Shown here one piece after another: positions 7,280 to 29,643 of a stretch of DNA of 64,000 nt. A program made the translations under genes and the position numbers. Below the pieces are notes generated by a model. The model was given only the letters and a program-made list of their open reading frames with translations. It was not told the origin of the DNA and ran no database searches. The stretch's first letter is position 1; every line of letters begins with the position of its first letter. Origin of the DNA: Solwaraspora sp. WMMA2065 (GTDB taxonomy: Bacteria > Actinomycetota > Actinomycetes > Mycobacteriales > Micromonosporaceae); assembly GCF_030345075.1 (NCBI RefSeq), contig NZ_CP128361.1:3596001-3660000 (forward strand), in the 5' to 3' direction.

Positions 7280-7933
7280 GTGCAGAACGTCGCGACGGTC
7301 CCGTTCCATCTCGACCGGCTCGACCCGGCCGCGATGGGTGTCACCGCCCGCCGGTTCGCCGACCAGATGGCCAGCCGCCGCTCGGTGCGGCACTTCGCGC
7401 CCGACCCGGTGCCGTTGGAGGTCATCGAGGACGCGGTACGGGCGGCGGCCTGCTCGCCCAGCGGCGCGAACCTGCAGCCGTGGCGGTTTGTCGTGCTCAC
7501 CGACCCGCAGCGCAAGCGCCGGCTGCGGCAGGCCGCCGAGGCGGAGGAGTTGGAGTTCTACACCCGGCGGGCGTCCGCCGAGTGGCTGCGGGCGGTGGCG
7601 CCGATGGGCACCGACTGGCAGAAGCCGTTCCTGGAGACCGCCCCGGTGGTCATCGTGGTGTTCGAGGTGCACCGGGGGCCCAACTCGCCCAAACCGTACT
7701 ACGTCAAGGAGTCGGTCGGCATCGCCACCGGGGTGCTGATCACCGCGCTGCACCTGGCCGGGCTGGCCACCCTCACCCACACGCCCAGCCCGATGAAGTT
7801 CCTCAACGAGATCTGCGAACGCCCCGCTGAGGAACGGGCCTGCGTGGTGATGCCGGTCGGCTACCCGGCGGCCGGGGTGACCGTGCCGCAGCTGACCCGC
7901 AAGCCGCTGTCTGAGGTCCTGGTCCGCCGGTAG
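7280..7933 (+). CDS. FMN-dependent nitroreductase-superfamily protein, iodotyrosine deiodinase-like
   Basis: The 217-residue product has the nitroreductase FMN motif SRRSVRHF near the N-terminus, a second FMN loop (SPSGANLQPWRFVVL) and the C-terminal VMPVGYPAAGVTVPQL. The pattern of middle and C-terminal motifs, including the IATGVLITALHLAGLATLTH helix and the terminal PVGYP-x-x-x-x-TVP-x-L-x-RKPL run, is the one I know from iodotyrosine deiodinases rather than from nitroaromatic reductases. Those enzymes remove iodide or bromide from halotyrosines using FMN; bacterial relatives also act on other phenols. The start is the GTG at 7280, eight bases after GGAGG. It stands just upstream of the enediyne core and converges on the flavoprotein gene. 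Confidence 0.8.
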   Translation: MQNVATVPFHLDRLDPAAMGVTARRFADQMASRRSVRHFAPDPVPLEVIEDAVRAAACSPSGANLQPWRFVVLTDPQRKRRLRQAAEAEELEFYTRRASAEWLRAVAPMGTDWQKPFLETAPVVIVVFEVHRGPNSPKPYYVKESVGIATGVLITALHLAGLATLTHTPSPMKFLNEICERPAEERACVVMPVGYPAAGVTVPQLTRKPLSEVLVRR

Positions 7934-7962
7934 GCGGCAGTGGTACCAGGTTTCCCGGAGGG

Positions 7963-9516
7963 TCAGCGGTGCAGGTCGGCGGTGAAGAACCGGGTCAGCG
8001 GCTGGATGTGCCGGTCCGGTCGACGCCACTCGGCCAGCAGGTCCTCCAGCAGGTGCAGCTCCTCGACGAGTTCGCCGCCCCGGTAGCGGCGCACCACCGG
8101 GTGGATGAAGGCGCTCTCGGACGCCCGGTCGGGCTGCGGGTGACGTTCGATCGAGAAGACGTCCGGGTAGTCGTCCCGCCCCCAGCGCAGCCCGAACGTG
8201 TAGTAGTGGCTCTCGCTGCCGAATCGGCGTACCGCGTAGTCCTCCGGCAGGTCGTGGTAGTGCCGGACGTGACCGGTTGCCTGGTCGACGACCAGGGCGT
8301 CGACCAGGAACTCGAACTGGGTCCACAGCGCCGAGCTCCAGTTGACCCGGTCCAGCACCGCCCGGGTCAACGAGTCCGGGTCGGCGGAGACCTTGTCGAA
8401 GCCCAGCGGCGCAGCCTCGTACCGCTCGCGCAGCAGCGCGGTCAGGGTCCGCAGGTTGTACCGGAACCCGTCGATGAATGCCGAGGACGCCTTCTTGAAG
8501 TCGCGGTCCTGGGCCACGGTGCCGGCGAAGTAGAGGCCGTCGACGTCGACCGACTGCCAGTCCGGGTCGGTGGCCGGCATCCGGCCGCTGGGGACCAGCT
8601 TCGGACTGGCGCTGGCACCGAAGATCGAGGTGTCCATGGCGAAGCCGGTGCAGCGCAGCACCGACTCGTACTCCATCACCGCGGTCTCGCCGTCGGCGTG
8701 GGTGTAGGTGAGGTGCACCTCGTAGCGGTCGCCGACCGGGCGGATCTCGTCGACCACGCAGTCCAGTACCGAGTGCAGCGTCTTGAACTGGTAGCTGTCC
8801 AGCACCGCGCCGTGATGGCCGCGTACGTCCCCGGGGTGTTTGGTGTTCCAGGCCAGCCGCATCGGCCGAGGGCTGGCCAGGTGCACCATGGATGCGTGGC
8901 CGAGGATCGCCGAGGCCGTTTCGAACGCCGAGTTGCCCTTGCCGAGGATCAGCACCCGGTGGCCGGCGTAGTCCGCCGGGTCGGTGCTCATCGCCTCGTA
9001 GCCGACCGCGTGTTCGATACCGGTTACGTCGGGGATGTTCGGCCGGCCCCAGCCGGTGGCCACGACCAGGCACTCGCAGCTGTAGGTCTGGTCACCGGCG
9101 GACACCACGAAGCCGTCCTCGGTCTTCTCGACCCGCTCGACGCCGACGCCGTACCGGATCGCCAGCCGGTGGTGCCGGGCGAAGTCGGCCAGGTAGCGGA
9201 CCAGGTCGTCGGCGCTCGGGTAGTACTCCCGGCTGTAGTCGGAGAAGGGCAGTTCGAACGGCTCGTGCAGCAGCGAGTTCCAGTCCCAGCGGAGTCGGAT
9301 CTCCGGGTCGGCGCTGACGGTGTGCACCTTGTTCAGCGAGATCAGGCCGCGGTGTCTAGGGAACCGCCGGAAGAACTCCCCGGGACCATCGGATCGCTCC
9401 AGTGTGAGGTAGTCGCTGCCGGCCTGCTGCAGGTAGTAGCTGAGCTGTAGCCCGGCCGGGCCGGCGCCGACGATCAGATACCGGTGGTGGGTGGTCGCGG
9501 GCGGCACGTCGGTCAT
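7963..9516 (-). CDS. FAD/NAD(P)-binding monooxygenase-like flavoprotein (FOXRED2-like)
   Basis: The 517-residue protein begins after a GGGGAGAG ribosome-binding site. An N-terminal FAD Rossmann motif (GAGPAGLQLSYYLQQAG, about residues 13-29) and a central NAD(P)H Rossmann motif (LILGKGNSAFETA, about residues 167-179) are both clear. The passages around GYEAMSTDPADY and VLDSYQFKTLHSVLD recall the FOXRED2 group of flavoproteins, more distant from N-hydroxylases and Baeyer-Villiger monooxygenases. No signal peptide is visible. Its position next to the nitroreductase-like gene and the enediyne core suggests an oxidative tailoring role, such as hydroxylation of an aromatic or the core, but the substrate is unknown. 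Confidence 0.8.
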   Translation of the reverse strand: MTDVPPATTHHRYLIVGAGPAGLQLSYYLQQAGSDYLTLERSDGPGEFFRRFPRHRGLISLNKVHTVSADPEIRLRWDWNSLLHEPFELPFSDYSREYYPSADDLVRYLADFARHHRLAIRYGVGVERVEKTEDGFVVSAGDQTYSCECLVVATGWGRPNIPDVTGIEHAVGYEAMSTDPADYAGHRVLILGKGNSAFETASAILGHASMVHLASPRPMRLAWNTKHPGDVRGHHGAVLDSYQFKTLHSVLDCVVDEIRPVGDRYEVHLTYTHADGETAVMEYESVLRCTGFAMDTSIFGASASPKLVPSGRMPATDPDWQSVDVDGLYFAGTVAQDRDFKKASSAFIDGFRYNLRTLTALLRERYEAAPLGFDKVSADPDSLTRAVLDRVNWSSALWTQFEFLVDALVVDQATGHVRHYHDLPEDYAVRRFGSESHYYTFGLRWGRDDYPDVFSIERHPQPDRASESAFIHPVVRRYRGGELVEELHLLEDLLAEWRRPDRHIQPLTRFFTADLHR

Positions 9517-9674
9517 GGATCTCTCCCCGGTCGGAATATCCATGACTTTTTATGATAAATGCGCATAGGTCAATCGGTCATACGGATCATCGACGACCGA
9601 CCGAGGGGCGGTTGCGCGACCCGGTCGGCAATCCGATCTCCGTGCCGTGGTGGACGTCCCGGGGCACCCGGAAA

Positions 9675-9698
9675 CCCGGCCGTGGTGGACAGGCCGGG
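9675..9698 (-). terminator. Possible hairpin terminator after the 104-residue gene
   Basis: Arms CCCGGCC (9675-9681) and GGCCGGG (9692-9698) enclose a 10-base loop, 28 bases past the stop of the gene at 9726. The stem is only 7 bp and has no T-run, so the call is weak. Confidence 0.4.
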
Positions 9699-9725
9699 CA
9701 CCCGGGATCGCCGCAGCGGCCGAGG

Positions 9726-10040
9726 TCAGGCCGCCTGGGTCGCCGGCTCGCGCCGGCCGCTGACCTTCGCCGGCGGCATCGGGCCGCCCTTCGCGGTGCC
9801 GGACATCTCGTCACCGTCGACCACGACGTCGAACACCAGATTCATCCGGATCGGCTTGGTGATCGACTGGAACCAGGACAGCCGGTCGTCGGCCACCTGC
9901 AGGTCCTGCAGTACCAGTTCCTCCTTCTCCCCACGGGAGATCCCCTGCAGCACACCGTCCTTGGTGAACAGTTCGAGCACGGTGTGCCGGGTACCAAGCG
10001 GGGTGGCCACGGCAACCTTCCAGAATCCCTCGACAGACAC
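9726..10040 (-). CDS. 104-residue protein of unknown function in the enediyne locus
   Basis: The chosen start is the GTG at 10040, preceded by AAGGAG; the open frame further upstream lacks a start signal. The protein alternates hydrophobic and polar residues as in a small beta-barrel, from EGFWKVAVATPLGTRHTVLEL through LVFDVVVDGDEMSGTA, and ends with KGGPMPPAKVSGRREP. It has no cysteine, signal peptide or membrane segment. I do not recognise a family. It diverges from unbV across a 457-base regulatory gap, so it is probably a co-regulated small pathway protein, possibly a binding or scavenging protein; this is inference from shape and place only. Confidence 0.7.
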   Translation of the reverse strand: MSVEGFWKVAVATPLGTRHTVLELFTKDGVLQGISRGEKEELVLQDLQVADDRLSWFQSITKPIRMNLVFDVVVDGDEMSGTAKGGPMPPAKVSGRREPATQAA

Positions 10041-10497: not shown

Positions 10498-12468
10498 GTG
10501 CTGGGTCAACGCCTGCGCTCGATCAGCCCCGGGATAACGGCGATCTTACTTCTCGTCGTGATGTTCTTCATCATCGATGCTCGCGTGTCGGTGGCCGGCG
10601 CTGACGAGGTTGCCCAAAAGTACCGGTTCACCGAGCTTGAGATCGACTATCCGGAAGGTTACGACCAACTACCTAAACGGAACATCCGTGAGGTCAACGA
10701 GTCGTACCACAAGATCCGGTCCTGGATCTCCTCGGTGGGCGCGAGCATCGCCGTCAACGACCTGACCGGCCACGGGGTGGCCAACAGCTTGTGCTTCGTC
10801 GACGTGCGGACCAACGAGGTGGTGGTCACCTACGCGCCGACCGCACCGGCCGCCGACCGGTTCGAGCCGTTCCTGCTCGACCCGGCGCCGCTGCCGATCG
10901 ACCACACGATGGCGCCGATGGGCTGCGTGCCGGGTGACTACAACCTGGACGGCCGGATGGACATCATGGTGACCTACTGGGGCCGGGTGCCGATCCTGTT
11001 CCTGCGCAAGGCCGGAACCGAGCTGCCCGCCAACGACGCGTACCACCGGCAGGAGATCCTGCCGCAGGACTCGCCGGACGGCCGCTACCACGGGCCGAAG
11101 TGGCACACCAACGCGGCCACGGTCAACGACTTCGACGGTGACGGCAAGCCGGACGTGGTGATTGGCAACTACTTCCCCGAGTCCGATGTGCTCGCCCCGG
11201 ACGGCCAGGACAACGTCGAGATGAACGACTCGCTCTCCACCGCGACCAACGGCGGCGGGCTGCAGGTGCTGCGCTGGCACGCGGCGACCGCCGGCGAGAC
11301 GCCGTCGGTGACCTTCGTGCCGGAGCGCGGTGCGGTCCCGTTCGCCAAGAGCACCGGCTGGACCCTGGCGCTGAGCTCCGCTGACCTGACCGGTCGCGGC
11401 CTGCCGGACATGTACGTCGCGAACGACTTCACCTTCGACGCCCTGCTGCACAACGTCTCCCGGCCCGGTCAGATCAAGTTCGAGGCGGTGTACGGCGAGC
11501 GCAGCCACGGTACGCCGAAGTCGTTCCAGCTGGGCAAGGACTCGTTCAAGGGGATGGGCGTCGACTTCGGCGACCTGGACGCGAACGGCAGCTTCGACAT
11601 GGTGGTCTCCAACATCACCACCGCCTGGGGGTTGGAGGAGAGCAACTTCGTCTGGGTGAACCAGGCCGGCTCCGAGGAGGAGGCCCTGCAGAGTCTCTCC
11701 GCCGGTACTGCGCCGTTCATCCAGCAGGCCCGGCCGCTCGGCCTGGCCTGGAGCGGCTGGGGCTGGGACGTGAAGTTCGCCGACTTCCGCAACGACGGTG
11801 ACCTGGAGGTCGTGCAGACGCTCGGCTTCGTCAAGGGCGACATCGACCGGTGGCCGTGGCTGCAGGAGATGGCGATGTCCAACGACAACCTGCTCTCCAA
11901 CCCGGCGATGTGGCCGAACATGCAGCCCGGCGACGACATCGCCGGTGACCAGCCGCTCGCCTTCTTCGCCCGGACCGACAGCGGCGAGTTCACCAACATC
12001 ACCGAGCAGCTCGGCCTGGACGTGCCGATCCCGACCCGCGGCATCGCCACCGCCGACACCCGGGCGACCGGCGCGCTCGACCTGGCCGTAGCCCGGCAGT
12101 GGGCCGCCCCGGCGTTCTACACCAACGAGGCACCGGACCTCGGCGACTACCTCAACCTGCGGCTGTACCGGCCGACGCTGGACGGCACCGACGCCGACCT
12201 GCCCGGTACGCCGGCCTACGGCGCCACCGTCACGGTCACCACCGCAGACGGACGCCGGCAGGTCTCCCAGCTCGACGGCGGCAGTGGCCACGGCGGCAAA
12301 CGCAGCTTCGATGTCCACCTCGGACTCGGAGACGCCACCGGCCCGGTCACCGTCGACCTGCGCTGGCGTGACCTCGACGGCGATCTGCACAGCACCACTC
12401 AGCAGCTGTCGGCCGGCACGCACACCCTCGTGCTGACCGACCGTGTCCAGGAGGTTCCGAACCGATGA
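10498..12468 (+). CDS. unbV: Enediyne conserved protein UnbV (FG-GAP/ASPIC-UnbV)
   Basis: The 656-residue protein starts with GTG after AAGGAG. A hydrophobic N-terminal helix (about residues 11-34, ITAILLLVVMFFIIDA) looks like a signal anchor or uncleaved signal. The rest shows several FG-GAP/calcium-type loops such as DYNLDGRMDIM, DFDGDGKPDVV, DLDANGSFDMVVSN and DFRNDGDLEVV, expected to form a beta-propeller. The C-terminal region from about 555 (LNLRLYRP to LGLGDATGPVTVDLRW) matches the ASPIC/UnbV domain. UnbV is one of the conserved enediyne cassette proteins with no settled biochemical role. It overlaps unbU by 4 bases (ATGA), indicating translational coupling in the core operon. Confidence 0.92.
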   Translation: MLGQRLRSISPGITAILLLVVMFFIIDARVSVAGADEVAQKYRFTELEIDYPEGYDQLPKRNIREVNESYHKIRSWISSVGASIAVNDLTGHGVANSLCFVDVRTNEVVVTYAPTAPAADRFEPFLLDPAPLPIDHTMAPMGCVPGDYNLDGRMDIMVTYWGRVPILFLRKAGTELPANDAYHRQEILPQDSPDGRYHGPKWHTNAATVNDFDGDGKPDVVIGNYFPESDVLAPDGQDNVEMNDSLSTATNGGGLQVLRWHAATAGETPSVTFVPERGAVPFAKSTGWTLALSSADLTGRGLPDMYVANDFTFDALLHNVSRPGQIKFEAVYGERSHGTPKSFQLGKDSFKGMGVDFGDLDANGSFDMVVSNITTAWGLEESNFVWVNQAGSEEEALQSLSAGTAPFIQQARPLGLAWSGWGWDVKFADFRNDGDLEVVQTLGFVKGDIDRWPWLQEMAMSNDNLLSNPAMWPNMQPGDDIAGDQPLAFFARTDSGEFTNITEQLGLDVPIPTRGIATADTRATGALDLAVARQWAAPAFYTNEAPDLGDYLNLRLYRPTLDGTDADLPGTPAYGATVTVTTADGRRQVSQLDGGSGHGGKRSFDVHLGLGDATGPVTVDLRWRDLDGDLHSTTQQLSAGTHTLVLTDRVQEVPNR

Positions 12469-13460
12469 CCACGACCGCCGAACGCCAACAGACCGTCGGC
12501 ACGACGACGGCCCCCGCCGGTCCACCCGCGCCGGCGGCGAAGGAGCCGGACCGCCGCTACCTGGCGCTGCGCAACTTCGCCATCTCGATGACCGTGTTCA
12601 ACATCCTCGGGTACACCGTCCTGGGCTTCGAGCAGCCGTGGCTGTGGCCGATCCTGGCGGTGCTGGTGGGCTACGCCACCGAGCTGGTCTTCGAGACCTT
12701 CAGCGCCCGGATGCAGCAGCGGGCACCCCGGTACACCGGGCGCGGCGGACGCGGCATGTACGAGTTCCTGCTGCCCGCCCACATCACCGCGCTGGCCTGC
12801 AACATGCTGCTGTACGCCAACGACATGTTCCTGCCGATCGCGTTCGCGGTGATCGTCGGGGTCACCGGCAAGTACGTCTTCCAGGCCCCGGTGTACGGCC
12901 GGATGCGGCACTACATGAACCCGTCCAACCTGGGCATCACCGTGGCCCTGGTCTGCTTCGGCTCGTGGATCTCGATCGCCCCGCCGTACCAGTTCACCGA
13001 GGGTGCCAACACCTTCTTCCGGATCATGATCCCGATCATCATCGTCACCGCCGGTACGGTGATCAACGCCATGCTGACCCGCAAGGTGGCGTTGATCGTC
13101 GGCTGGCTGGGCGGCTTCGCCATCCAGGCGCTGCTGCGGCACTGGATCTGGGACGTGGCACTGTTCTCGGCGCTCGGCGTGATGGCCGGGGTGGCGTTCG
13201 TGCTGTTCACCAACTACATGATCACCGACCCGGGGACCACCCCGGTCAAGCCGATCCACCAGTTCATGTTCGGGTCGTCGGTGGCCATGGTCTACGGCGT
13301 ACTGATGCTGTTCAACGTCGTCTACACGCTGTTCTTCGCCGTCGTCGTGGTCTGCGGCGCCCGCGGCATCTACTGGTGGATGGTTCACCTGCGTAAGCGC
13401 GCCCAGCAGCAGGCGGCGGTGGCACCCGCCCCCGCGCCGGTGGCCGGCGCGACGGCGTGA
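12465..13460 (+). CDS. unbU: Enediyne conserved membrane protein UnbU
   Basis: The 331-residue protein is rich in hydrophobic helices, about eight, spread over residues 38-300. A polar N-terminus precedes them and an Ala/Pro tail follows. The layout and segments such as ALRNFAISMTVFNILGY, RHYMNPSNLGITVALVCFG and FMFGSSVAMVYGVLMLFNVVYTLFFA resemble the RnfD/NqrB-like membrane family to which UnbU belongs. UnbU is a universally conserved member of enediyne cassettes, with proposed roles in electron transfer or export but no proven function. Its start overlaps the unbV stop and it lies 13 bases before pksE, so it is part of the same transcript. Confidence 0.9.
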   Translation: MTTTAERQQTVGTTTAPAGPPAPAAKEPDRRYLALRNFAISMTVFNILGYTVLGFEQPWLWPILAVLVGYATELVFETFSARMQQRAPRYTGRGGRGMYEFLLPAHITALACNMLLYANDMFLPIAFAVIVGVTGKYVFQAPVYGRMRHYMNPSNLGITVALVCFGSWISIAPPYQFTEGANTFFRIMIPIIIVTAGTVINAMLTRKVALIVGWLGGFAIQALLRHWIWDVALFSALGVMAGVAFVLFTNYMITDPGTTPVKPIHQFMFGSSVAMVYGVLMLFNVVYTLFFAVVVVCGARGIYWWMVHLRKRAQQQAAVAPAPAPVAGATA

Positions 13461-13473
13461 GGAAAGGTATCTG

Positions 13474-16400
13474 ATGAGTGACCGTATCGCGGTGGTCGGG
13501 ATCGCCTGCCGGTATCCCGACGCCGACTCCCCCAACCAACTGTGGGAGAACGTGCTCACCGGCCGCCGGGCCTTCCGCCGGCTGCCGGACGAGCGGATGA
13601 ACCACGAGGACTACTACTCCCCCGACCCGGCCGCGCCGGACCGGTTCTACTCGGCCAAGGCGGCGGTGCTGGAGGGGTTCGAATTCGACCGGGTCAAGTA
13701 CCGGATCGCCGGCAGCACCTTCCGGTCCACCGACATGACCCACTGGCTGGCCCTGGACACCGTCGCCCGGGCCCTGGCCGACGCCGGCTTCGCCGACGGT
13801 GAAGGGCTGCCGGCGGCCAGCACCGGCGTGGTCATCGGCAATACCCTGACCGGTGAGTTCAGCCGGGCGAACCTGCTGCGGCTGCGCTGGCCGTACGTCC
13901 GGCGCACGGTCGGCGCGGCCCTGCGCGAGCAGGGCTGGGACGACACCGCGGTGACCGCCTTCCTGGACGATCTGGAGCCGCGCTACAAGGCGCCGTTCCC
14001 GCCGATCGACGAGGACACCCTCGCCGGTGGGCTGGCCAACACCATCGCCGGGCGGATTTGCAACCACTTCGACTTCAAGGGCGGCGGGTACACCGTCGAC
14101 GGTGCCTGCTCGTCGTCGCTGCTGTCGGTCGCCACCGCCTGCAACGCGCTGAGCAACGGCGAGCTGGACGCGGCGGTCGCCGGCGGGGTGGACCTGAGCA
14201 TCGACCCGTTCGAGGTGATCGGCTTCGCTAAGACCGGCGCGCTGGCCACCGCCGAGATGCGGGTGTACGACCGCAACTCCAACGGCTTCTGGCCCGGTGA
14301 GGGCTGCGGCATGCTGGTGCTGATGCGCGACGAGGACGCCGTCGCCCGGGGTCTGCGTCGGCACGCGGTCATCGCCGGCTGGGGCTACTCCTCCGACGGC
14401 AAGGGCGGCATCACCCGGCCGGAGGCCAGCGGCCACCGACTGGCGATCCGTCGGGCGTACCAGCGGGCCGGCTTCGGCATCGACTCGGTCGCCTACCTGG
14501 AGGGACACGGCACCGGGACGGCCGTCGGTGACGCCACCGAGCTGCGCGCGTTCACCGAGGCCCGCCGAGAGGCGGCCCCGGACGGCGAGCCGGCCGCGAT
14601 CAGTACGGTCAAGGGCAACTTCGGCCACACCAAGGCCGCCGCCGGGGTGGCCGGCCTGCTCAAGGCGATCCTGGCGGTCCGCCAACAGGTGATCCCGCCG
14701 GCCACCGGGCACGTCGAGACCCACCCGGAGCTGGACGTCGAGCAGCCCGCGCTGCGGGTGCCGGCCGCCGCCGAGCTGTGGCCGGCGGACAAGCCGATCC
14801 GGGCCGCGGTCTCGTCGATGGGCTTCGGTGGGATCAACGCCCACGTGGTGGTGGAGACCGCCGAGACCAGCCGGCGGACCCGGGTCGGGACCGCGACCAC
14901 GGCGCTGGTGCGGTCCCGGCAGGACACCGAGCTGCTGCTGTTCGACGCCCGGACCCCGCAGGAGCTCGGCGAACGACTCGCCGGGCTGGCCCCGTGGGTG
15001 GCCCGGCTGTCCTACGCCGAACTCGGCGACCTGGCCGCCGCGCTGGCCGGGCAGTTGGCCGGCCAGCCGGTCCGGGCCGCGGTGGTCGCCGGCTCCCCGG
15101 AACAGGCCGCCGGCCGGCTCAGCCGGCTGGCGGAGGCGGTCGCCGCCGGTGAGCGTACGGTCATCGACGCCGCCGACGGCGTGTTCCTCGGCGCCGCTGG
15201 CGGCAACCCGCGCATCGGGTACCTGTTCCCCGGGCAGGGTGCCGGGCGGCGGGCCGACGGTGGCGCACTGCGTCGCCGGTTCGCCGACGTCGACACGCTG
15301 TACCGGACGTACCAGCCACCGGCCGGTGCCGACCTGGTGGCCACGGCGGTCGCCCAGCCACGGATCGTCACCGGATCTGTCGCCGGTCTGCGGGTGCTGT
15401 CCATGGTGGGCATCGAGGCCACCGGTGCCGCCGGGCACAGCCTCGGTGAACTGACCGCGCTGCACTGGGCCGGGGCGATGGATGAGCCGACGCTACTGGC
15501 CACGGCCGCCGCCCGAGGCCGGATCATGGCCGACGCCAGCGCCGGTGACGGCACCATGGCCAGCATCTCCGCCGCGCCCGAGGTGGTGCAGCCGCTGCTC
15601 GCCGGTACGGCGGTGGTGATCGCCGGCTACAACAGCCCGCAGCAGACCGTGGTCTCCGGCCCAGTCGCCGCAGTCGAGCAGGTCGGTGCCCGAGCCGAAC
15701 GGCAGGGCCTGTTCTGGACCCGGATCGCCGTGTCGCACGCCTTCCACTCCGAGGCGGTCGCCCCGGCCGCGGTGGCGTTCGGTGAACACCTGGCCGGTCA
15801 GTCGTTCACCCCGCTGGCCAGGTCGATGGTCTCCACCGTCACCGGTGAGCCGCTGCCGGCCGACACCGACGTCGTCGACCTGCTGCGCCGGCAGGTGCTC
15901 GACCCGGTGCGGTTCACCCAGGCGGTGAGCCGGCTCGCCGAGACCAGTGACCTGCTGCTGGAGATCGGTCCGGGTCGGATCCTGCGCGGCCTGGCCGGCG
16001 AGATCGCCCCGGACGTGCCGACGATCTCGCTGGAGACCGACAGCTTGTCGCTGTCCGGGCTGCTCAACGCCGTCGGGGCCGCGTACGCGCTGGGCGCGGT
16101 GATCGACCACGATGCGTTGTTTCAGGGCCGGTTCACCCGACCGCTGGAACCCGGTCGGCCGCTGCGCTTCCTCGCCAGCCCGGCCGAGTCGGCCCCGGCC
16201 GGCGACTTCGCCGTCGCCCGGCAGGCCGGAGCCCAGCCGGCCGATCACGCCGCGGGATCCGCGAACAGCTCCCGGGACCAGGCGGCGGGGCGCTCCGGTG
16301 CGGACAGTCTCGAGGTGCTCCGTCGGCTCGCCGCCGAACGGGCCGAGCTGCCGCTGGATGCGGTACGCCCGGACAGCCGGCCCCTCGACGAGCTGCATCT

Positions 16401-19811: not shown

Positions 19812-20399
19812 GTGGCTACCGACAAGCAGACCGTGCCGGGCGTCGCAACGGCCGGATCCGCCGGATCCAACGGTACGGTCGGGGCGGCCGGATCCAACGG
19901 TACGGGCAAGGGTGACCACGCCGAGCTGCGCACCGTGATGGGGATGTTCGCCACCGGCGTCACCCTGGTGACGTCCGGGACCGACCTGCCGCACGGGATG
20001 ACCGCGAACGCGTTCTCCTCGGTATCGCTGGAGCCGGCGTTGGTGCTGGTGTGCGTCAAGCGCACCGCGGTGCTGCACGCGACGGTCCTGGCCCAGGGCA
20101 CCTTCGCGGTGTCGATCCTGGGTGCCGACCAGGAAGGGCTGGCCCGCTACTTCGCCAGCTCGTCGCGGCCGCGCGACGAGCGGGAGTTCGAGACGGTCGA
20201 CCACTGGGCGGGGCGGCACACCGGCGCACCGATCATCTCCGGCAGCCTGGCCTGGGTGGAGTGCAAGCTGGCCGCCGTCTACGACGGCGGCGACCACTCC
20301 ATCTTCCTCGGCTCGGTGCTGGGCACCGGCCGCGGTGACGGCCACGACGCGTTGCTGTTCCACGGTGGCCGGTTCGTCGAGGTCGCCGGCCGAGGCTGA
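19812..20399 (+). CDS. Flavin reductase-domain protein (enediyne E6-like)
   Basis: The 195-residue product has a flavin-reductase-like FMN-binding fold: LRTVMGMFATGVTLVTS, then HGMTANAFSSVSLEPALVLV, then FAVSILGADQEGLARYFASS, ending in LLFHGGRFVEV. Such proteins supply FADH2 or FMNH2 to a two-component monooxygenase, and 9-membered enediyne clusters carry an E6 gene of this kind. The first 35 residues form an odd flexible segment with SGSNGT-like repeats, encoded by repeated GGATCC-containing DNA. It begins with GTG two bases after the thioesterase stop, as the last gene of the core operon, and is followed by a 16-bp perfect terminator hairpin. Its partner oxygenase is not obvious in the window. 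Confidence 0.88.
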   Translation: MATDKQTVPGVATAGSAGSNGTVGAAGSNGTGKGDHAELRTVMGMFATGVTLVTSGTDLPHGMTANAFSSVSLEPALVLVCVKRTAVLHATVLAQGTFAVSILGADQEGLARYFASSSRPRDEREFETVDHWAGRHTGAPIISGSLAWVECKLAAVYDGGDHSIFLGSVLGTGRGDGHDALLFHGGRFVEVAGRG

Positions 20400-21956: not shown

Positions 21957-22939
21957 GGCTGCGCCCCGACGTCGGCGCGGAACCGTGCGGCAATCGCACA
22001 CCGCCAGATCTCGTACGCCGGCAGGTCGGACTCCGCCGTGACGGGCGGGATCTCCTCGTCGGTGATCCGGGCCGCTTCGACCGCACCGGTGCGGCAGAAC
22101 ACCTCGGTGGCCAGCTCGGTGTGCGGCATCAGCAGCCCGGCGCGGACCCGGGCCTGGGCTGCGAACGCGCTGGCCTGGGCGACGAACGGGGCATGGTCGC
22201 CGGAGCGGCGCAGGAACAGGGCAAGCTCCTCCTCGGTGGCGCCGCCGGCGTACGTCGCGGCCAGGCCGGCGCCGCTGTACAGGTCCTGGTGCCGGGCGAC
22301 GGGGAACGCGTCGATCAGGTCCGCGGCGCGCGTCGGGTCGGAGCCGGCGACGAACCAGATGGCCCGGCCGATGCCCTGGTCCACGACGCGGTCGGCGTAC
22401 CACGTCGGGCCTTCCGACGGCCAGGGGAAGCCGCGCACCGTCCGCCGGTTGACGACGTACTCGGCGGTGTGGAAGTACGCCTGGTGGAAGCCGTACCCGT
22501 CGAGCACCAGCCAGCGCAGCAACGGGTCGGTCGCGGCGGCGCTGGCCCGGCCCCAGAGGAACCGGGGCAGTCGGGCCATCGCCCAGCCGATGCCGACGTA
22601 CGCCATGTAGACGTGCCGGTCGCCGGTCCCGGCGAGGAACTCGGCGCTGCGCCGGGGTTTCCCCGGGGTGATCGCGTCGACCAGGGCGAAGCCCATCGCC
22701 GCGCCCTCGTAGGCGAACCCCTGGAAGCGGGTCGGCAGCGGAGCGAGGTCGGTGTCGACGTCGGTGACCCGCCGAGCACCGGCGGCTGAGGAGAGCCCGG
22801 CGAGGAACGAGGCACCGACGGATTCCAGAACCTCAACTGCTTCCGGCCCTTTGTCGTGGAAGCCACGAACGGATACCCGGGTCTGCGAAATGTCAGGGGT
22901 CAGGACCCGTTGCCGGAGCCCTCGGATGATTCCGGTCAC
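21953..22939 (-). CDS. unbL: Enediyne conserved protein UnbL (DUF1702 family)
   Basis: The 328-residue protein resembles the DUF1702 family, the UnbL member of the conserved enediyne cassette: RGFHDKGPEAVEVLESVGASFLAGL near the start, FQGFAYEGAAMGFALVDAI, WALPRFL-like and GYGFHQAYFHTAEYVV segments, and DRVVDQGIGRAIWFVAGSD. No signal peptide or membrane helix is evident and its biochemical role is unknown, though it is needed in enediyne pathways where tested. The start is GTG at 22939. It forms a two-gene operon with the P450 (4-base overlap), so the cassette is split onto the opposite strand from pksE rather than being collinear. Confidence 0.88.
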   Translation of the reverse strand: MTGIIRGLRQRVLTPDISQTRVSVRGFHDKGPEAVEVLESVGASFLAGLSSAAGARRVTDVDTDLAPLPTRFQGFAYEGAAMGFALVDAITPGKPRRSAEFLAGTGDRHVYMAYVGIGWAMARLPRFLWGRASAAATDPLLRWLVLDGYGFHQAYFHTAEYVVNRRTVRGFPWPSEGPTWYADRVVDQGIGRAIWFVAGSDPTRAADLIDAFPVARHQDLYSGAGLAATYAGGATEEELALFLRRSGDHAPFVAQASAFAAQARVRAGLLMPHTELATEVFCRTGAVEAARITDEEIPPVTAESDLPAYEIWRCAIAARFRADVGAQP

Positions 22940-23267
22940 CTATCGCTCCCATTCATCCAGATCAGACAAGCATCATCATTGATCGTGCCGGTGCGACAGT
23001 GCGGACGCCACTTCCCGATTGCCCTGTGACCTGCAGCTAAGTAGCGTCAACAACGGCACTATGAGAGAAGACCACCGTCGCTCGCCGGGGCACGATCAGA
23101 CCGGACCGACACCAACGAAATTGTCGTACGACACATCGAGCGACAACCTGTACGGGCACTCCACGCCGGTACGGGAGATTTGTTTTGCTCAGGCGCCGTT
23201 ATCGGCCCGGTCGGCGGACGATATCCGACCATGGCGCATGGGTGGATTCCAGAAATGGAGGAGACCG
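22940..23267. promoter_or_regulatory. Divergent promoter region between unbL and the SDR gene
   Basis: This 328-base gap is A/T-enriched and has no convincing gene; an open frame across it lacks a ribosome-binding site. It should contain both divergent promoters. A perfect 10-bp palindrome GTCGTACGAC lies at 23123-23132 within a wider imperfect dyad (TTGTCG at 23121 and CGACAA at 23141), a candidate operator. Confidence 0.4.
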
Positions 23268-24356
23268 ATGTTGGTCCTGGTCACCGGCGGCACCGGATTC
23301 GTCGGCGCGCACACGGTCGCGGCCACCCTCGCCGCCGGCCATCGGGTCCGGGTGCTGGCCCGCGACCCCGCCGGGGTGTCCCGGGCCATGGCGCCGTTGG
23401 GAGTGCCCGAGACAGCGGTCGACGTGGTGCTCGGCGACGTCACCGACGCGGTCGCAGTCGACCGGGCGGTCCGGGACACGGACGCGGTGGTGCACGCCGC
23501 ATCGGTCTACTCGTTCGACAGCCGGCGGCACGCCGCGACCCGGCGGACCAACGTACGCGGAACCGAGCTGGTGCTGGCGGCGGCGCGTAACCATGGGGTG
23601 GCCCGTACGGTGTACGTGTCCACGGTGGGCGCGTTGCTGCCGGCGGCCGGCTCGCCGCTCGATCCGAGCGCTGCGCACGGCCCGAGTTCGCTGCTCGGCC
23701 CGCGCTCGCCGGTCGGCACCGCCAGCGAGCCCTACCTGGCCAGCAAGGCGGCGGCGGAACGGGTCGCCCGCCGACACCAGGAGCAGGGCGCGCCGGTGGT
23801 GATCAGTTACCCGCCGGCGCTGCTCGGTCCGGACGACCCGAAGGTCGGCGACCAGACCGCCCGGCTGCGGTACGTGCTGCGCGGCATGATGCCGGTCTGG
23901 CCAACCGGCGGTTTCCCGGCCGGCGACGTCCGCGACACCGCCGCCCTGCACGCGGCGCTGCTCACCGCGCCGAGCGACGGCCTGGACCGGCACTTCGGGC
24001 CGGGACGGTACGTCAGCACCCGCGACTACGTGGCCACCGTCCGCGCGGTGACCGGGCGACGGCTGCCGACGGTGTTCCTGCCGGCCCGGGCGATGTTGCC
24101 GTTCGCCCGGCTCACCGACCTGGTGCAGCGGGTCTGGCCGTGGCACATCCCGGCTGAGTACGGCGCCTGCTACGTCTGCGCCTGCGCGGCGCACCCGCCG
24201 CAGGAGGAGCCGTTGGTCGGGCCGCCCGCCCGTCCGTTCAGCCGAACGGTCGCCGACACGGTGCGCTGGCTGCACCGGACCGGGCGGCTCTCCGCCGGGC
24301 AGGCCGGACGGGCGTCGACCGACCCGGCCGGACGGCCATTGCCCGACCGACAGTGA
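23268..24356 (+). CDS. Extended-SDR NAD(P)-dependent epimerase/reductase
   Basis: The 362-residue protein starts with MLVLVTGGTGFVGAHT, a TGxxGxxG nucleotide motif of extended SDRs, and has a Tyr-x-x-x-Lys catalytic site in YLASKAAAE. The acceptor loop STVGALLP is like dihydroflavonol-4-reductase or 3-beta-HSD relatives. Such proteins reduce or epimerise aromatic, steroid or sugar substrates. The start at 23268 follows the strong ribosome-binding site AATGGAGGAG; the open frame to the left has no such signal. It diverges from unbL and precedes the mycothiol-type enzyme gene by 37 bases, so it belongs to the enediyne locus as a probable tailoring reductase. Confidence 0.85.
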   Translation: MLVLVTGGTGFVGAHTVAATLAAGHRVRVLARDPAGVSRAMAPLGVPETAVDVVLGDVTDAVAVDRAVRDTDAVVHAASVYSFDSRRHAATRRTNVRGTELVLAAARNHGVARTVYVSTVGALLPAAGSPLDPSAAHGPSSLLGPRSPVGTASEPYLASKAAAERVARRHQEQGAPVVISYPPALLGPDDPKVGDQTARLRYVLRGMMPVWPTGGFPAGDVRDTAALHAALLTAPSDGLDRHFGPGRYVSTRDYVATVRAVTGRRLPTVFLPARAMLPFARLTDLVQRVWPWHIPAEYGACYVCACAAHPPQEEPLVGPPARPFSRTVADTVRWLHRTGRLSAGQAGRASTDPAGRPLPDRQ

Positions 24357-24393
24357 TCCGCCGTGGCGACACGGCCGTACCAGGGAGGCAAGC

Positions 24394-25188
24394 ATGTCCG
24401 AAAGCGACTCCGTCCGCGCCGAGTCGGGTGTCTCGGGCGCCGGGCCGGATCCCGCCGGGCCGATTCCGACCGGACCGGCTGCGGCCGGGTACCGGCAGGT
24501 CCGCCGGAACGTGACCGAGCTGCTCACCGCGGGTCCGCCGGACCTGGCTGCGGCCGTACCCGGCTGCCCGGACTGGAGCATCGCGGACCTGGCCAGCCAC
24601 CTGGTCCAGGTCTGTGCCCGGGTGTATGAGCGGATCGCCGCGGGTGAGACGGCGACGGAAGGCACCGGCGGCGGACCGACGCCGGCCGGCATCCAGTTCT
24701 CACTGCTGCCGTCGGACCGCGCGACCGCACCGCTGCCGGCCGGTGGGATCGGCGAGCTCCTCGACGACTGGACGCGGTTGAGCGGGCCGGTCGAGCAGTT
24801 CCTCGGCGAACCGTTCACCGTCCGACGGGGCATTCTCGTAATGGACGCGTTCACCCACGAGTTGGATCTACGCCGGGCGCTCGGGGTGGATCCGCCGGCA
24901 CCGCAGCACCCGGCGCTGCCGATAGCGATGGGCATCTTGGCGAAAGGACTATCGCTGTCGACCCGCAACCGCGGCCTGCCGGCGCTGCGGGTGGAGACCG
25001 ACCTCGGCCAGTGGCCGATCGGCGAGGGTGCGCCCGCGGCCACCGTCGCCGGCTCCTGGCACGACGTCTACCAGGCGATGTCCGGCCGGTTGACCGAGGA
25101 ACGGATCCGCGCGCTGCGCTGGAGCGCGGACCCGGCACCGTGGCTCGCGGCGTTCACCTGGGGACCGTTCGTCGTCCCCGTCCGCTGA
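24394..25188 (+). CDS. Mycothiol-dependent maleylpyruvate isomerase family protein (second copy type)
   Basis: The 264-residue protein opens with a long Gly/Pro/Ala segment and then has the MDMPI N-terminal helices: YRQVRRNVTELLTAGP, WSIADLASHLVQVCARVYERI, and MDAFTHELDLRRALG. The His residues in DLASHL and TFHEL-like positions are those that bind the metal in this family. A C-terminal alpha/beta domain follows. The start has AGGGAGG 8 bases upstream. It shares the transcript direction of the preceding SDR. Because enediynes are triggered or detoxified by thiols, a mycothiol-handling enzyme at this locus may act in self-protection or tailoring. That is inference; the family call is solid. Confidence 0.75.
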   Translation: MSESDSVRAESGVSGAGPDPAGPIPTGPAAAGYRQVRRNVTELLTAGPPDLAAAVPGCPDWSIADLASHLVQVCARVYERIAAGETATEGTGGGPTPAGIQFSLLPSDRATAPLPAGGIGELLDDWTRLSGPVEQFLGEPFTVRRGILVMDAFTHELDLRRALGVDPPAPQHPALPIAMGILAKGLSLSTRNRGLPALRVETDLGQWPIGEGAPAATVAGSWHDVYQAMSGRLTEERIRALRWSADPAPWLAAFTWGPFVVPVR

Positions 25189-25305: not shown

Positions 25306-25341
25306 GATGCCGCAGGTGCATTCTGATGCGCCTGCGGCATC
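25306..25341 (+). terminator. Hairpin terminator between convergent operons
   Basis: Arms 25306-25320 and 25327-25341 pair over 15 bases, with one G-T wobble and a 6-base loop (TTCTGA). It lies between the rightward MDMPI-type gene and the leftward AraC gene and can serve either strand. Confidence 0.7.
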
Positions 25342-25467
25342 ACGTCTTCAGAAGCACCGACGGAAGACGTCGCTGCGGATCCCTCGACCCCGCAGTCGGA
25401 AGCACATGTATCGACGTCGCCCGGCCGGCAGCGTGCGCCACCGGCCGGGTGAGGGCAGACCTTCGGG

Positions 25468-26280
25468 TCACGATCGGATCGCGCCGACCACCCGGGTCCG
25501 CCCGGCGACGCGCCGTTCGTCACGGCCGCGGGACCGACGGCTCCGGGAACCGGTCACGTGCCCGTCGAGTTCGGGCAGTGCGATCAGGATGGGCAGGTCG
25601 AAGACGCCGGTGGCGTGCAGTTCCAGGTCGACGGTGAGATCGGTGCCGACCGTCACCGACAACGGCTCGTGCGCGCCGACCGCGAGCGGACGTCGGGTCG
25701 ATGGGCGGGCGGTGATGTCGTCCAGCGCGATCGCGGCTGCCCTCAGGTACCATTCGCCTTCCGGAACATCGGTGAGCAGGTAGTCGCCGGACGCCTCGAG
25801 GATGTCGCAGGCGGCGGGCAGCCCTTGCACGATCGGGCTGTCGAACACTCCGACGTAGACCTTGACCGGAACGTCGATCGGCGGCAGCACGACCTTTCCG
25901 CTGATCGTGGCAGCTCGCCGGCTGCCGGCCGACCGGGGCTGGGACAACTGTGGGATGCCGTGCTCGGCGAGCCACCGGTAGCGTGCCGGCGAGATGCCGA
26001 CGCTGCGGGTGAACCGACTGATGAAGGTGCCCAGACTGTTGTAGCCGACGGCGTAGGCGATGTCGGTGACGCTCATGTCGGTCTCCAGCAGCAGGTGTTT
26101 CGCCTTGTACAGCCGGATCGCTGTCAGGAAGCGGCCGGGCGACGTGCCCGTCTTGGACCGAAACAATCTGGAAAAGTAAAAACGACTCAGAAAGGCAGAA
26201 TCGGCCATAGCGTCGAGTGAGAGTGGCTCGTGGTAGCGGTCCCACATGATGGCAATAGCCCGTTCGACGGCGTTAGGCAC
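25468..26280 (-). CDS. AraC-family transcriptional regulator with C-terminal Ig-like domain
   Basis: The 270-residue protein has its two helix-turn-helix motifs at the N-terminus (residues about 15-100): LDAMADSAFLSRFYFSRLFR, then MSVTDIAYAVGYNSLGTFISRFTR and GISPARYRWL. This is the reverse of classical AraC, where the DNA-binding part is C-terminal. The remainder, from SGKVVLPPIDVPVKVYVGVFDSP to VDLELHATGVFDLP, is a beta-rich domain resembling a carboxypeptidase-regulatory or Ig-like fold that could bind a ligand. It starts with GTG. It is the only regulator inside the enediyne locus and so is a candidate pathway activator; no target site is assigned. Confidence 0.8.
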   Translation of the reverse strand: MPNAVERAIAIMWDRYHEPLSLDAMADSAFLSRFYFSRLFRSKTGTSPGRFLTAIRLYKAKHLLLETDMSVTDIAYAVGYNSLGTFISRFTRSVGISPARYRWLAEHGIPQLSQPRSAGSRRAATISGKVVLPPIDVPVKVYVGVFDSPIVQGLPAACDILEASGDYLLTDVPEGEWYLRAAAIALDDITARPSTRRPLAVGAHEPLSVTVGTDLTVDLELHATGVFDLPILIALPELDGHVTGSRSRRSRGRDERRVAGRTRVVGAIRS

Positions 26281-26698: not shown

Positions 26699-27745
26699 CT
26701 ACCCCCGCATCGGGAGCAAATTGCCCACCCGCCGGGCCGCCGCCATCGCCGCCCAGGAGGAGAGCTCGACCAGCGTACGGTCGTCGGCGCCGACCTGCCG
26801 GCAGCGCTCGATGACGGCGGGATCCACCTGGTAGGAGGCGAAGGCGACCAGCAGCGCCAGCCGCGCCACCGGCCGCTGGTCGGCGGGCAACGGCGCGATC
26901 AGTTCCTCGACCCAGACCCGACTGATCCCACGTGGCCCGCCACCCCACCGGGCGAGATTGTCCGACACCAGGGCGCGGATGTTCGCCGGCAGCGCGCGGG
27001 CGCCGGCGTCGTCGATCGCGGCGCAGGCCCGCGCGTACGCCTGGGCGACGGTGTCGTTGTCAGCCGCCCAGGACAGGTCGGCGGGCAGGTCGGCGGCGGG
27101 CAGCAGGCCGAGGGCGGCCCCGGGTACGTGCGCCTGACGGGCGGCACCGGCCATCTGACGACCGAGCACCCACAGCACCGGCGGCAGCGTGAACTCCGGC
27201 ACCTTGGGCGGTAGCGGTACGTCACGGAGGAACACGTTCACCATCCGGTTGAGGTAGTGCAACAACACCGCCACACCGACCAGGTCGGCGAGCTGCTCGG
27301 CCGGAAACTGAGGATCGACCGGCCTGCCCGGATGGTCCACCGACATCACCCATTCGACGAAGACGTCCAGTTCCGGGGCGTTCGTCGCGGGCTGGTCGCG
27401 CCGGCCCGGACCGAGCACGGTGAGCGCGCTGTTGTGGATCATGGCGCAGTACGGGCAGGCGTTGCCGGCCGAGACGGCGGTGGCCACCGCCTCCTTGGCC
27501 GCCCGGGACGCCAGCCCGGGCACGATCAACGTCTCGCGCAGCACCAGCCACGCCGCGGCGAGCATCTCAGGTGCCGCAGCATGCAGGGCCACCGGCGGCG
27601 CGAGCACCCCGAAGTCGCCTTCCATCTGTCGGTACACCTGAGACACGAGACCACTCGCCCTTCCTCGCCGCACTGCGGAGACGTAGCGAATCTGAGTCAG
27701 CCCCAGGCCGCTCAGCACCGGACGCATCAGACTTCCCGGCATCAT
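26699..27745 (-). CDS. Carboxymuconolactone decarboxylase/AhpD-family protein, long form
   Basis: The 348-residue protein has NACPYCAMIHNSAL, the AhpD/CMD redox motif with Cys97, Cys100 and His104. The rest is helical, with a second CMD-like half (about residues 200-348, through VARLALLVAFASYQVDPAVIERC). At twice the size of a simple CMD protein it looks like a tandem-domain member. These proteins are peroxidase-like or gamma-lactone-forming enzymes; here the function is open. The start at 27745 is the first of two adjacent ATGs, preceded by GATGAGG. It lies in the enediyne locus and diverges from the 199-residue CMD gene at 28069, across a gap with a CCAAT palindrome. Confidence 0.75.
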   Translation of the reverse strand: MMPGSLMRPVLSGLGLTQIRYVSAVRRGRASGLVSQVYRQMEGDFGVLAPPVALHAAAPEMLAAAWLVLRETLIVPGLASRAAKEAVATAVSAGNACPYCAMIHNSALTVLGPGRRDQPATNAPELDVFVEWVMSVDHPGRPVDPQFPAEQLADLVGVAVLLHYLNRMVNVFLRDVPLPPKVPEFTLPPVLWVLGRQMAGAARQAHVPGAALGLLPAADLPADLSWAADNDTVAQAYARACAAIDDAGARALPANIRALVSDNLARWGGGPRGISRVWVEELIAPLPADQRPVARLALLVAFASYQVDPAVIERCRQVGADDRTLVELSSWAAMAAARRVGNLLPMRG

Positions 27746-28068
27746 GACCTCATCCGTTCCAATTGATTGGTGACAGGCTATCGGTTGATACTGCCACGTA
27801 GCCAGAGCTATCGGAGATCCCGCCCTCCTTTCGCCGGTCTTCAAAATGGTGCGCCGACTAGGCAATCTGGGAGAGCACGACCCCCTGCGGTACATGCCAT
27901 CATGAGGCGACCAAAATGCCTGTCGACCGTTGCCACAGGTGCTGCCCGCTGCGCCGTGTGCCACTGTCGGGGCTGGCACGGCAGGTCTCGCCCCCGGTTC
28001 GGGTCTGGTGTGGAGGGTTGACGCACGGGCAGGCCCGGCACCCGCTCACCCACTGAGGAGAACACTCA
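27746..28068. promoter_or_regulatory. Divergent promoter region of the two CMD/AhpD-type genes
   Basis: This 323-base gap contains no convincing gene. A perfect 12-base palindrome, CCAATTGATTGG at 27759-27770, lies 14 bases upstream of the leftward start codon, a good position for an operator. Promoter boxes were not assigned. Confidence 0.45.
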
Positions 28069-28668
28069 ATGGAAACGACGACAAAGCAGCCGGGAATCCG
28101 GGTCCCGCTGATTGACGAGGAGCACGCCGAAGGCCGCACCGCCGAACTCTACGAGCAGATCAAGGCAGTCACCGGGCTGCCGTTCGTGCCGGACATGTTC
28201 CGGCTCACCTCGACCAATCCTCGGCTGCTCGAGGTGGTCGTCGCCGGCTACGGGGGCATCTTCAAGGGCGACACCCTGCCCCGCGATCTCAAAGAGCTGA
28301 TCTCGGCCTGGACGTCCAAGCTGAACGGCTGCCCGTACTGCGTGGGCACGCACAGCTGGTTCCTCAGCGAGTTCGGTGGCAGCGAGGAGCTGGTCGAGGC
28401 CGTCTCGACCGCCTCGACCGCCGAGGAGCTGCCGGTCGACGAGCGGACCCGGCCGCTGATGAAGCTGGTCGAGAAGGTCAGCACCGGCGCGTACAAGATC
28501 ACCGACGCCGACTGGGAACAGGCCGCCGCCGCCGGCTGGAGCGACGCCGAGATGCTCGAGGCGGTCTTCTGCGCCAGCCTGTTCGCCTTCATCAACCGGC
28601 TGGTCGACGCGACCGGGTTGGGTACGTCAACCGACCGCAGCCGGATCGCCCGACAGGGCGACGAGTGA
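28069..28668 (+). CDS. Carboxymuconolactone decarboxylase/AhpD-family protein
   Basis: The 199-residue protein has NGCPYCVGTHSWFL, the AhpD-type motif with Cys88, Cys91 and His95, and the usual surrounding helices. It starts with ATG after TGAGGAG. The family includes peroxidase-like and lactone-cleaving enzymes and many proteins of unknown function. It is followed 25 bases later by an SDR gene on the same strand, suggesting a two-gene transcript that ends at the hairpin at 29602. Confidence 0.82.
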   Translation: METTTKQPGIRVPLIDEEHAEGRTAELYEQIKAVTGLPFVPDMFRLTSTNPRLLEVVVAGYGGIFKGDTLPRDLKELISAWTSKLNGCPYCVGTHSWFLSEFGGSEELVEAVSTASTAEELPVDERTRPLMKLVEKVSTGAYKITDADWEQAAAAGWSDAEMLEAVFCASLFAFINRLVDATGLGTSTDRSRIARQGDE

Positions 28669-28693
28669 CCTCCGGTCGGAGAGGAGTCCGGTC

Positions 28694-29569
28694 GTGACAC
28701 GATCCCGCGCGATCCTGCTGACCGGTGCGTCGTCGGGCACCGGCATGTCGTCCGGCTCGGGCAAGGCGGCCGCGCTGCGCCTGCACCGAGCCGGCTGGCC
28801 GGTCTACGCCACCGGCCGCAACGTCGACGCGCTGGCCGATCTGGCCGCCGAGGGCATCACCGTGATGCATCTCGACGTCACCGACGAGGAGTCGATGGCC
28901 GCTGCGGTCAAGCGGATCACCGACGAACACGGCGCGGTCGGCACGTTGATCAACAACGCCGCGTACAGCCTCAACGGCACCATCGGGGAGACCCCGATGG
29001 ACGAGGTACGGGCCCAGTTCGAGACGAACGTCTTCGGTCTGTGCCGGCTCACCCAGATGGTCCTGCCCGGGATGCGGGAGCAGGGCGGTGGCCGGGTGGT
29101 GCTGATGTCGTCGATCTTCGGACTGTTCGCGACGCCAGGTCGGGGCTACTACCAGGCCACCAAGCACGCGTTGGAGGCGATCGGCGACTCGCTGCGACAC
29201 GAGGTGGCCCGGTTCGACATCAAGGTGGTGCTGATCGAGCCGTCGCCGATCCTCGGCGGTTTCGTCCCGGACAGCGTCGCCGACCTCGGCATGCAGTCGC
29301 ACGGCAACCCGGCGCTGTACAAGGACTTCTGGGACTACTTCGTACAGTGGCACCAGGCGTACCGGCTCAGCGACAACCCGCCGCTGCGCGGCAAGATGGC
29401 GGTCCGCGCCGAGCATGTAGCCAAGGTCATCGAGACCGCGGTCACCCACCCCAACCCGCGCGTCCGGTACCGACTCGGGATACCCGCCCGGCTGCTGACC
29501 CGGATGCGGGCGACGATCGGTGACCGCAACTGGGACCGGTTCGTCCGCGCGTTCTTCCCCATCCCCTGA
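28694..29569 (+). CDS. Short-chain dehydrogenase/reductase with an expanded nucleotide-binding loop
   Basis: The 291-residue SDR has the catalytic YYQATKHALE (Tyr-x-x-x-Lys), NNAAYSLNGTIGE and MSSIFGLFATPG. Its nucleotide loop is unusual: TGASSGTG is immediately followed by a second MSSGSG copy before the helix KAAALRLHRAGW, so the usual TGxxxGxG run is extended by about six residues through an 18-base near-duplication. This might affect cofactor fit. It starts with GTG after GGAGTCC. Such enzymes reduce or oxidise carbonyl or alcohol groups of small molecules; the substrate is unknown. It ends the rightward CMD-SDR transcript. Confidence 0.85.
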   Translation: MTRSRAILLTGASSGTGMSSGSGKAAALRLHRAGWPVYATGRNVDALADLAAEGITVMHLDVTDEESMAAAVKRITDEHGAVGTLINNAAYSLNGTIGETPMDEVRAQFETNVFGLCRLTQMVLPGMREQGGGRVVLMSSIFGLFATPGRGYYQATKHALEAIGDSLRHEVARFDIKVVLIEPSPILGGFVPDSVADLGMQSHGNPALYKDFWDYFVQWHQAYRLSDNPPLRGKMAVRAEHVAKVIETAVTHPNPRVRYRLGIPARLLTRMRATIGDRNWDRFVRAFFPIP

Positions 29570-29601
29570 CCGTGGCCGTGGGCCGTGGCCATGGCCCACG
29601 A

Positions 29602-29643
29602 ACTGATCGGCGCCGGCGGTCGAAACCGCCGGCGCCGATCAGT
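29602..29643 (+). terminator. Strong hairpin terminator after the CMD-SDR genes
   Basis: A perfect 19-bp stem (arms 29602-29620 and 29625-29643) with a CGAA loop, 33 bases after the SDR stop. A second, shorter dyad (CGTGGGCC/GGCCCACG) lies just before it. The leftward CopC-like gene lies on the other side. Confidence 0.85.

Follow-up and report, generated by a model that had tools for sequence, protein, structure and literature searches.

Enediynes are very potent DNA-cutting natural products. We analyzed a candidate enediyne biosynthetic locus in a 64,000-nucleotide stretch of Solwaraspora sp. WMMA2065 (NZ_CP128361.1, positions 3,596,001-3,660,000, forward strand; hereafter the window), whose genome (G000) is 6.74 Mb in one contig. 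Gene models were built from codon composition and open reading frames, and domains were assigned by Pfam and NCBIfam scans. C-1027 of Streptomyces globisporus was compared through the plasmid SGLP1 record NZ_CP013739.1, in which only SgcE6 is named; the assignments of E2-E5 and E7-E11 are our assumption, guided by gene order. The core of the locus consists of the following genes.

10498-12468, plus strand: UnbV (E4), PF07593, 47% to C-1027 E4.
12465-13460, plus strand: UnbU (E5), 55% to its C-1027 counterpart at the E5 position, which is annotated as RnfD-like.
13474-19320, plus strand: PksE, 1948 amino acids, 56% to SgcE.
19324-19809, plus strand: hot-dog thioesterase (TE; E10), PF13279, 72% to C-1027 E10.
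19812-20399, plus strand: flavin reductase of the E6 type, PF01613, 52% to SgcE6.
20586-21956, minus strand: cytochrome P450 of the E7 type, PF00067, 60% to the C-1027 P450 beside SgcE6.
21953-22939, minus strand: UnbL (E3 type, DUF1702), PF08012 at 410 bits, 52% to C-1027 E3.

UnbV, UnbU, PksE, TE and the flavin reductase form a single run on the plus strand, spaced at -4 to 13 bases from one another. The KS, AT, KR and DH domains of PksE pass the Pfam cut-off, with the ACP slightly below it (20.4 versus 20.8 bits); neither the PPTase region nor UnbU gave a Pfam match in the domain scan. Across 19 aligned PksEs, the active-site positions, located by the usual domain motifs, are invariant or nearly so: Cys/His/His in KS, Ser/His in AT, Ser in ACP, Ser/Tyr/Asn in KR, His/Asp in DH and Asp/Glu/Lys in the C-terminal PPTase. 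This agrees with an earlier note on this DNA, which had called all six domains intact. The top PDB matches of TE are 4i4j ('ACP-polyene thioesterase'), presumably SgcE10, and CalE7 (2w3x). UnbL and the P450 share a 4-base overlap. Both run opposite to PksE, as the same note had described, but UnbL on that strand is not unique to this locus, being found in 8 of the 80 loci of a genome scan, two of them from the clade defined below. PMC5181780 defines an enediyne locus by the E3/E4/E5/E/E10 cassette, and domain, structure-match, alignment and C-1027 comparisons all find this cassette in the window. On sequence grounds the locus is a genuine enediyne cluster with a UnbV/UnbU/PksE/TE/reductase run from which UnbL is split off; the split cassette first described is supported.

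A family survey of 354 genomes placed UnbU and DUF1702 each in the same 146 (these and the E8 co-occurrence counts below rest on hand-transcribed tables). UnbU is 76-99% identical in 13 other genomes, the next best reaching at most 69%, and we refer to the window genome and these 13 relatives, 14 in total, as the clade. The relatives cover three genus groups and include Salinispora fenicalii CNT-569 (G180) and Micromonospora sp. HNM0581 (G260); several are draft assemblies, in which linkage is seen only as far as the contig reaches. The shared genes are collinear with the window in all but one, G143, where they are rearranged. The earlier note had held that a reference cluster of the same order and tailoring genes would overturn its view of the locus; this applies in part, as 12 of the 13 relatives preserve the order of the shared genes, but no characterised producer was found among the 13.

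According to PMC5181780, 9-membered enediyne clusters carry E2 and 10-membered ones R3, and neither type has the marker of the other. A single DUF1702 gene occurs in 11 of the 14 clade genomes, and two occur in the window genome (the second in a locus devoid of PksE), in G180 (a 221-bit match on a different contig) and in G143 (an E3-type copy). Hidden Markov models were built for both DUF1702 types and called the pair in the G293 locus, which we take to be the sporolide locus of Salinispora tropica CNB-440, as E2 plus E3. With these models the window UnbL is typed as E3 (473 bits versus 277 for E2), and an E2-type DUF1702 was found in none of the 14 clade loci, the window and its 13 relatives being typed as E3 only. 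In the rearranged cluster of G143 (L047, L048, L173, L174), UnbL is present in two E3-type copies, and another UnbV/UnbU pair follows some 8 kb beyond the P450; a single PksE was seen in 80 kb.

The names E8, E9 and E11 are used as assigned above; their co-occurrence was measured here. E8 (PF19449) was found in none of the 14 clade genomes by whole-genome search, and elsewhere in four of four 9-type controls, neither of two dynemicin-type genomes and three of seven named relatives. The E9 query matched the same seven genomes as E8 and none of the 14 clade genomes; the E11 query matched these seven again, with orthologs (at least 55%) in none of the clade genomes and distant TIGR03084 relatives (at most 50%) elsewhere in seven of the 14. 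Across the family, 92 of the 354 genomes have E8, with no clade member among them, and 91 of the 92 carry at least two DUF1702 genes; the UnbU-positive genomes outside these groups number 41, of which 38 carry a single DUF1702 and three carry more. One genome without UnbU or DUF1702 matches has a DUF5987 (E8) gene (G328:C41:2476-3045). When the search took in the window and its flanks (20 kb on the upstream side, 60 kb on the downstream side), C-1027 E8, E9, E11 and StrR gave no match at 1e-6, and C-1027 E2 matched paralogs only. Judged by these co-occurrences, E2, E8, E9 and E11 behave as one unit that is jointly gone from the clade.

For the 10-membered marker, PMC9464397 assigns TnmR3 to the AarF/ABC1/UbiB proteins. 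In none of the 14 clade genomes does the contig that bears UnbU have an ABC1/UbiB match at E<1e-40 less than 50 kb from this gene; the contigs of G231, G186 and G246 are short (19-78 kb) and cover the linkage only in part. A strong ABC1 match lies about 9-40 kb from UnbU in nine of ten non-9-type genomes (in the tenth it is on another contig) and near UnbU in none of three 9-type genomes. The nearest clade match, in the window genome, lies at 71 kb from UnbU, which is 45 kb beyond the end of the conserved genes and next to the PksE-less locus. That locus, to the right of the window (G000:C1:3660001-3720000; L071-L073), holds a second UnbL/UnbU/UnbV (41%, 50% and 40%) with no PksE or TE, UbiB-type and AraC genes between or beside them, and an open reading frame that by eye resembles a vanadium haloperoxidase; G306 (L066) has a comparable arrangement.

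A divergent 10-membered pathway, for example one resembling that of calicheamicin, would fit the absence of E2 and E8, which are also absent from the dynemicin genome G159 and from G300, and the closeness of TE to CalE7. The dynemicin locus (its TE is 100% to PDB DynE7) shares UnbL, UnbU, UnbV, PksE and TE with the window, but has UbiB genes beside it, whereas no UbiB/R3-type gene lies near the clade cassette; its 20 kb have no E6/E7-type genes, in contrast to the window, and the two PksEs are 43% identical and distant in the tree. We consider such a pathway improbable. The ring size, as far as these markers go, is not predictable by the published E2/R3 rule.

What the clade shares in addition to the cassette, in place of the missing block, is a clade-specific redox set made up of the following genes.

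9726-10040, minus strand: 104-residue protein, predicted eight-stranded beta-barrel (a model from three sequences, two of five models confident), kept in 13 of 13 relatives.
24394-25188, plus strand: MDMPI-type protein, PF11716 and TIGR03083 above cut-off.
28069-28668, plus strand: CMD2, the clade marker, PF02627.
28694-29569, plus strand: SDR2, adjoining CMD2, PF00106, 77% in Actinomadura xylanilytica.
31020-32420, minus strand: carotenoid-oxygenase (RPE65) family protein, PF03055 at 363 bits, with a 54% homolog beside the NBC_00887 cassette.
33279-34904, plus strand: GMC oxidoreductase, choline-dehydrogenase-like, PF00732/PF05199.
34983-38858, minus strand: SDR3, DUF899 and AMP-dependent ligase, the right edge; an adjacent trio also in A. 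xylanilytica and G143.

At E<=1e-50, CMD2 is found in exactly 14 of the 354 family genomes, which are the clade. The GMC oxidoreductase is not an E9 ortholog, being unmatched by C-1027 E9 or by the E9 query at 1e-30, and the MDMPI-type protein, the "mycothiol-type enzyme" correctly recognized at the outset, was likewise rejected as an E11 ortholog, as C-1027 E11 gives no match at 1e-6. Much of the set recurs in A. xylanilytica KACC 20219 (L112), which has the GMC (67%), CMD2 (64%), SDR2 and MDMPI-type genes and, side by side, SDR3 (70%), DUF899 (81%) and the AMP ligase (70%); E8 and E9 were not found in its genome. It differs in gene order, in UnbL (47%) and in PksE, which is 64% to SgcE and 55% to that of the window and groups with the SgcE/SpoE side. 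Since much of the set thus surrounds an SgcE-like PksE, it is not tied to a single PksE lineage, and it appears, from these comparisons, to have been combined with two different ones.

The clade PksEs form one clade with full support. Its neighbours are the PksEs of Actinospica durhamensis, Streptomyces albospinus and the NBC_00726/NBC_00887 plasmids; SgcE and SpoE fall elsewhere in the tree, and DynE8 is distant. These trees were made without G241 (broken frame) and without L075 and L091, dropped as duplicates of G180 and G260; they carry long-branch and composition warnings, their support values come from a single method, and CalE8 is not among the sequences. In S. albospinus (G355), locus L078 has an isolated PksE (66%)-TE (82%) pair, with no UnbV/UnbU in its 25.8 kb and no DUF1702 in the genome.

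The PksE placement bears on a further explanation, that of an ordinary 9-membered pathway leading to a canonical core, in which non-orthologous genes took the place of E2, E8, E9 and E11 (GMC for E9, the MDMPI-type protein for E11). E6-type flavin reductases and E7-type P450s are features of 9-membered clusters, and both are present in the window. TE is closest to 4i4j, the folds of the replaced proteins match, and the PksEs nearest to that of the window belong to NBC_00726/NBC_00887 and A. durhamensis, which carry E2, E8, E9 and E11. The orphan clusters on the plasmids of Streptomyces sp. NBC_00726 and NBC_00887 are the nearest with an annotated PksE (66-67%) and share an RPE65-TetR pair by the cassette, but theirs have tandem DUF1702, DUF5987, an E9-type GMC, TIGR03084 and a peripheral-moiety set (KSIII, nonribosomal peptide synthetase, aminotransferase). 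Similarly, the sporolide locus shares the cassette, the E6/E7-type genes and the epimerase described below, but has E2, E8, E9 and E11. Displacement would require that four genes otherwise kept as a unit were lost together, and the cluster has nothing resembling E8 or a second DUF1702. We regard it as possible, though doubtful.

The genes conserved together extend from about 2223 to 38858, wider than the span of 7280-29643 given in the earlier note, which was too short. On the right, SDR3, DUF899 and the AMP ligase follow in G304, G307 and G180, start just where the G187 stretch runs out and are also present in the rearranged G143 cluster; because the trio co-occurs in these relatives and in A. 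xylanilytica, we place the end of the cluster at about 38858. Ratios of nonsynonymous to synonymous substitution rates (dN/dS) against S. fenicalii are 0.06-0.15 for UnbV, UnbU, PksE, TE, the P450, UnbL, CMD2, SDR2, GMC and DUF899 and higher in other genes (0.54 for CMD1, 0.29 for MDMPI). Most cluster genes are under purifying selection, and because dN/dS is low the conservation of the cluster is not due to chance.

Taken together, what is unusual here, as read from the genes, is the lack of both published ring-size markers together with a shared replacement set; the cassette itself is ordinary. We give an even chance to the reading that this is a conserved enediyne pathway in which a separate gene set serves core maturation. 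Several observations weigh against it. The set is not fixed, as G180, G260 and G143 are without the iodotyrosine deiodinase (IYD)-like and FAD genes described below and G180 is also without RPE65, TetR and the left flank. In G241 the PksE is broken across frames, in a stretch rich in Ns. Absence was judged by homology, and the same-fold GMC and MDMPI-type proteins may do the jobs of E9 and E11; the presence of E6/E7-type genes and the position of PksE in the tree speak for a 9-membered type. The equation of R3 with the UbiB family is inferred by extension from tiancimycin TnmR3.

The missing maturation genes, the broken PksE of G241 and the carotenoid-oxygenase-like gene, which might act on polyenes, would also suit a cluster that makes a polyene or shunt product, or that is decaying, rather than an enediyne maker. 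Against this speak the completeness of the cassette, the low dN/dS and the conservation of both the catalytic positions and, over a long time, the gene order, and we think it very unlikely.

On the reading of a conserved pathway with its own maturation set, the protein families suggest that PksE, self-primed by its PPTase domain, would build a conjugated polyene that TE releases or edits, and that UnbL, UnbU and UnbV, acting together with flavin reductase and P450, could convert it to an enediyne core. The clade redox set might then finish and decorate this core by another route, in which the AMP ligase would activate an acid and the beta-barrel protein perhaps hold a hydrophobic intermediate. 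More tentatively, and we lean against it at present, the clade could represent a third class of enediyne maturation, with a shared PksE/UnbL/UnbU/UnbV start, neither the E2-E8-E9-E11 nor the R3-associated route, and an undescribed core or decorated product.

The remaining genes of the conserved region are as follows.

2223-3068, minus strand: MDMPI-like protein, the left edge, PF11716 at 24.1 bits, just below cut-off.
3202-4155, plus strand: membrane protein, no Pfam/NCBIfam match, with a 62% homolog beside the dynemicin cassette.
4197-4856, minus strand: CMD/AhpD-like protein 0, PF02627, 55% to the C-1027 CMD protein.
4900-6846, plus strand: an M20 peptidase gene, syntenic in 9 of 13 relatives, and a GCS2-like gene, syntenic in 10.
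7169-7933, plus strand: IYD-like FMN oxidoreductase, accessory, PF00881, in 10 of 13 relatives.
7963-9543, minus strand: FAD oxidoreductase, accessory, Pyr_redox_3, in 10 of 13 relatives.
23019-24356, plus strand: NAD-dependent epimerase/SDR, PF01370, with a 56% homolog in the sporolide locus.
25468-26280, minus strand: AraC-family regulator, PF12833, 37% to the C-1027 AraC regulator.
26699-27979, minus strand: CMD/AhpD protein 1 (CMD1), just below the Pfam cut-off, 44% to the C-1027 AhpD-like protein.
29693-30950, minus strand: CopC-domain protein (PF04234) and His-rich membrane protein (30312-30950), the latter 61% to a C-1027 protein.
32492-33226, plus strand: TetR regulator, PF00440, the partner of RPE65 in NBC_00726 and NBC_00887 as well.

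The left-edge protein is present in 11 of 13 relatives, the exceptions being G180 and G231 (in G231 the contig ends), and we are unsure whether the M20 peptidase and GCS2-like genes are part of the cluster. For the FMN protein, the best solved-structure matches are 5ko7 (215.6 bits), named a nitroreductase in the PDB but taken by us to be an IYD from bacteria, and the iodotyrosine deiodinases of animals, which score up to 159.6 bits; IYDs are thus its nearest relatives within the nitroreductases, as first proposed. The FAD oxidoreductase has a 64% homolog in an enediyne locus of Sphaerisporangium fuscum (L082). The membrane protein at 3202-4155 is found in other enediyne clusters too, dynemicin included; it and the one at 30312-30950, both without a Pfam/NCBIfam match, recur across many enediyne loci, the latter also in cyanobacterial ones (48-52%).

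C-1027 has counterparts of E3, E4, E5, E, E6, E7 and E10 at 47-72% and shares the AhpD, CMD, AraC and membrane genes, but its own E8, E9, E11 and StrR are unmatched in the window, which has no E2-type gene, and the C-1027 stretch compared is without the RPE65, GMC-type, SDR2 and AMP-ligase set. Because of these counterparts, part of the equipment that had seemed atypical is standard: the P450, two of the three CMD/AhpD proteins (two had been recognized, and 4197-4856 adds a third) and a membrane gene fall on that side, and the description holds only in part.

Two further observations concern the genome at large. On the minus strand, 52457-60391 of the window holds a 2644-residue open reading frame with RHS repeat, ricin-type lectin and pretoxin-HINT regions, of the polymorphic-toxin kind. 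KS matches in the first 24 kb of the G000 contig repeat with identical spacing 6,618,752 bases further on, and the contig ends therefore seem duplicated, in the assembly or in the genome.

We know of no account that resolves how one polyene is steered to a 9- or a 10-membered core. Related clusters that keep the cassette and E6/E7 but lose E2, E8, E9 and E11 together make the role of this block directly testable; their joint loss marks the four genes as one unit. A rule of two marker genes leaves some enediyne clusters unclassified, and the clade indicates that culturable actinomycetes, a Salinispora species included, carry a conserved enediyne family that is as yet uncharacterised.

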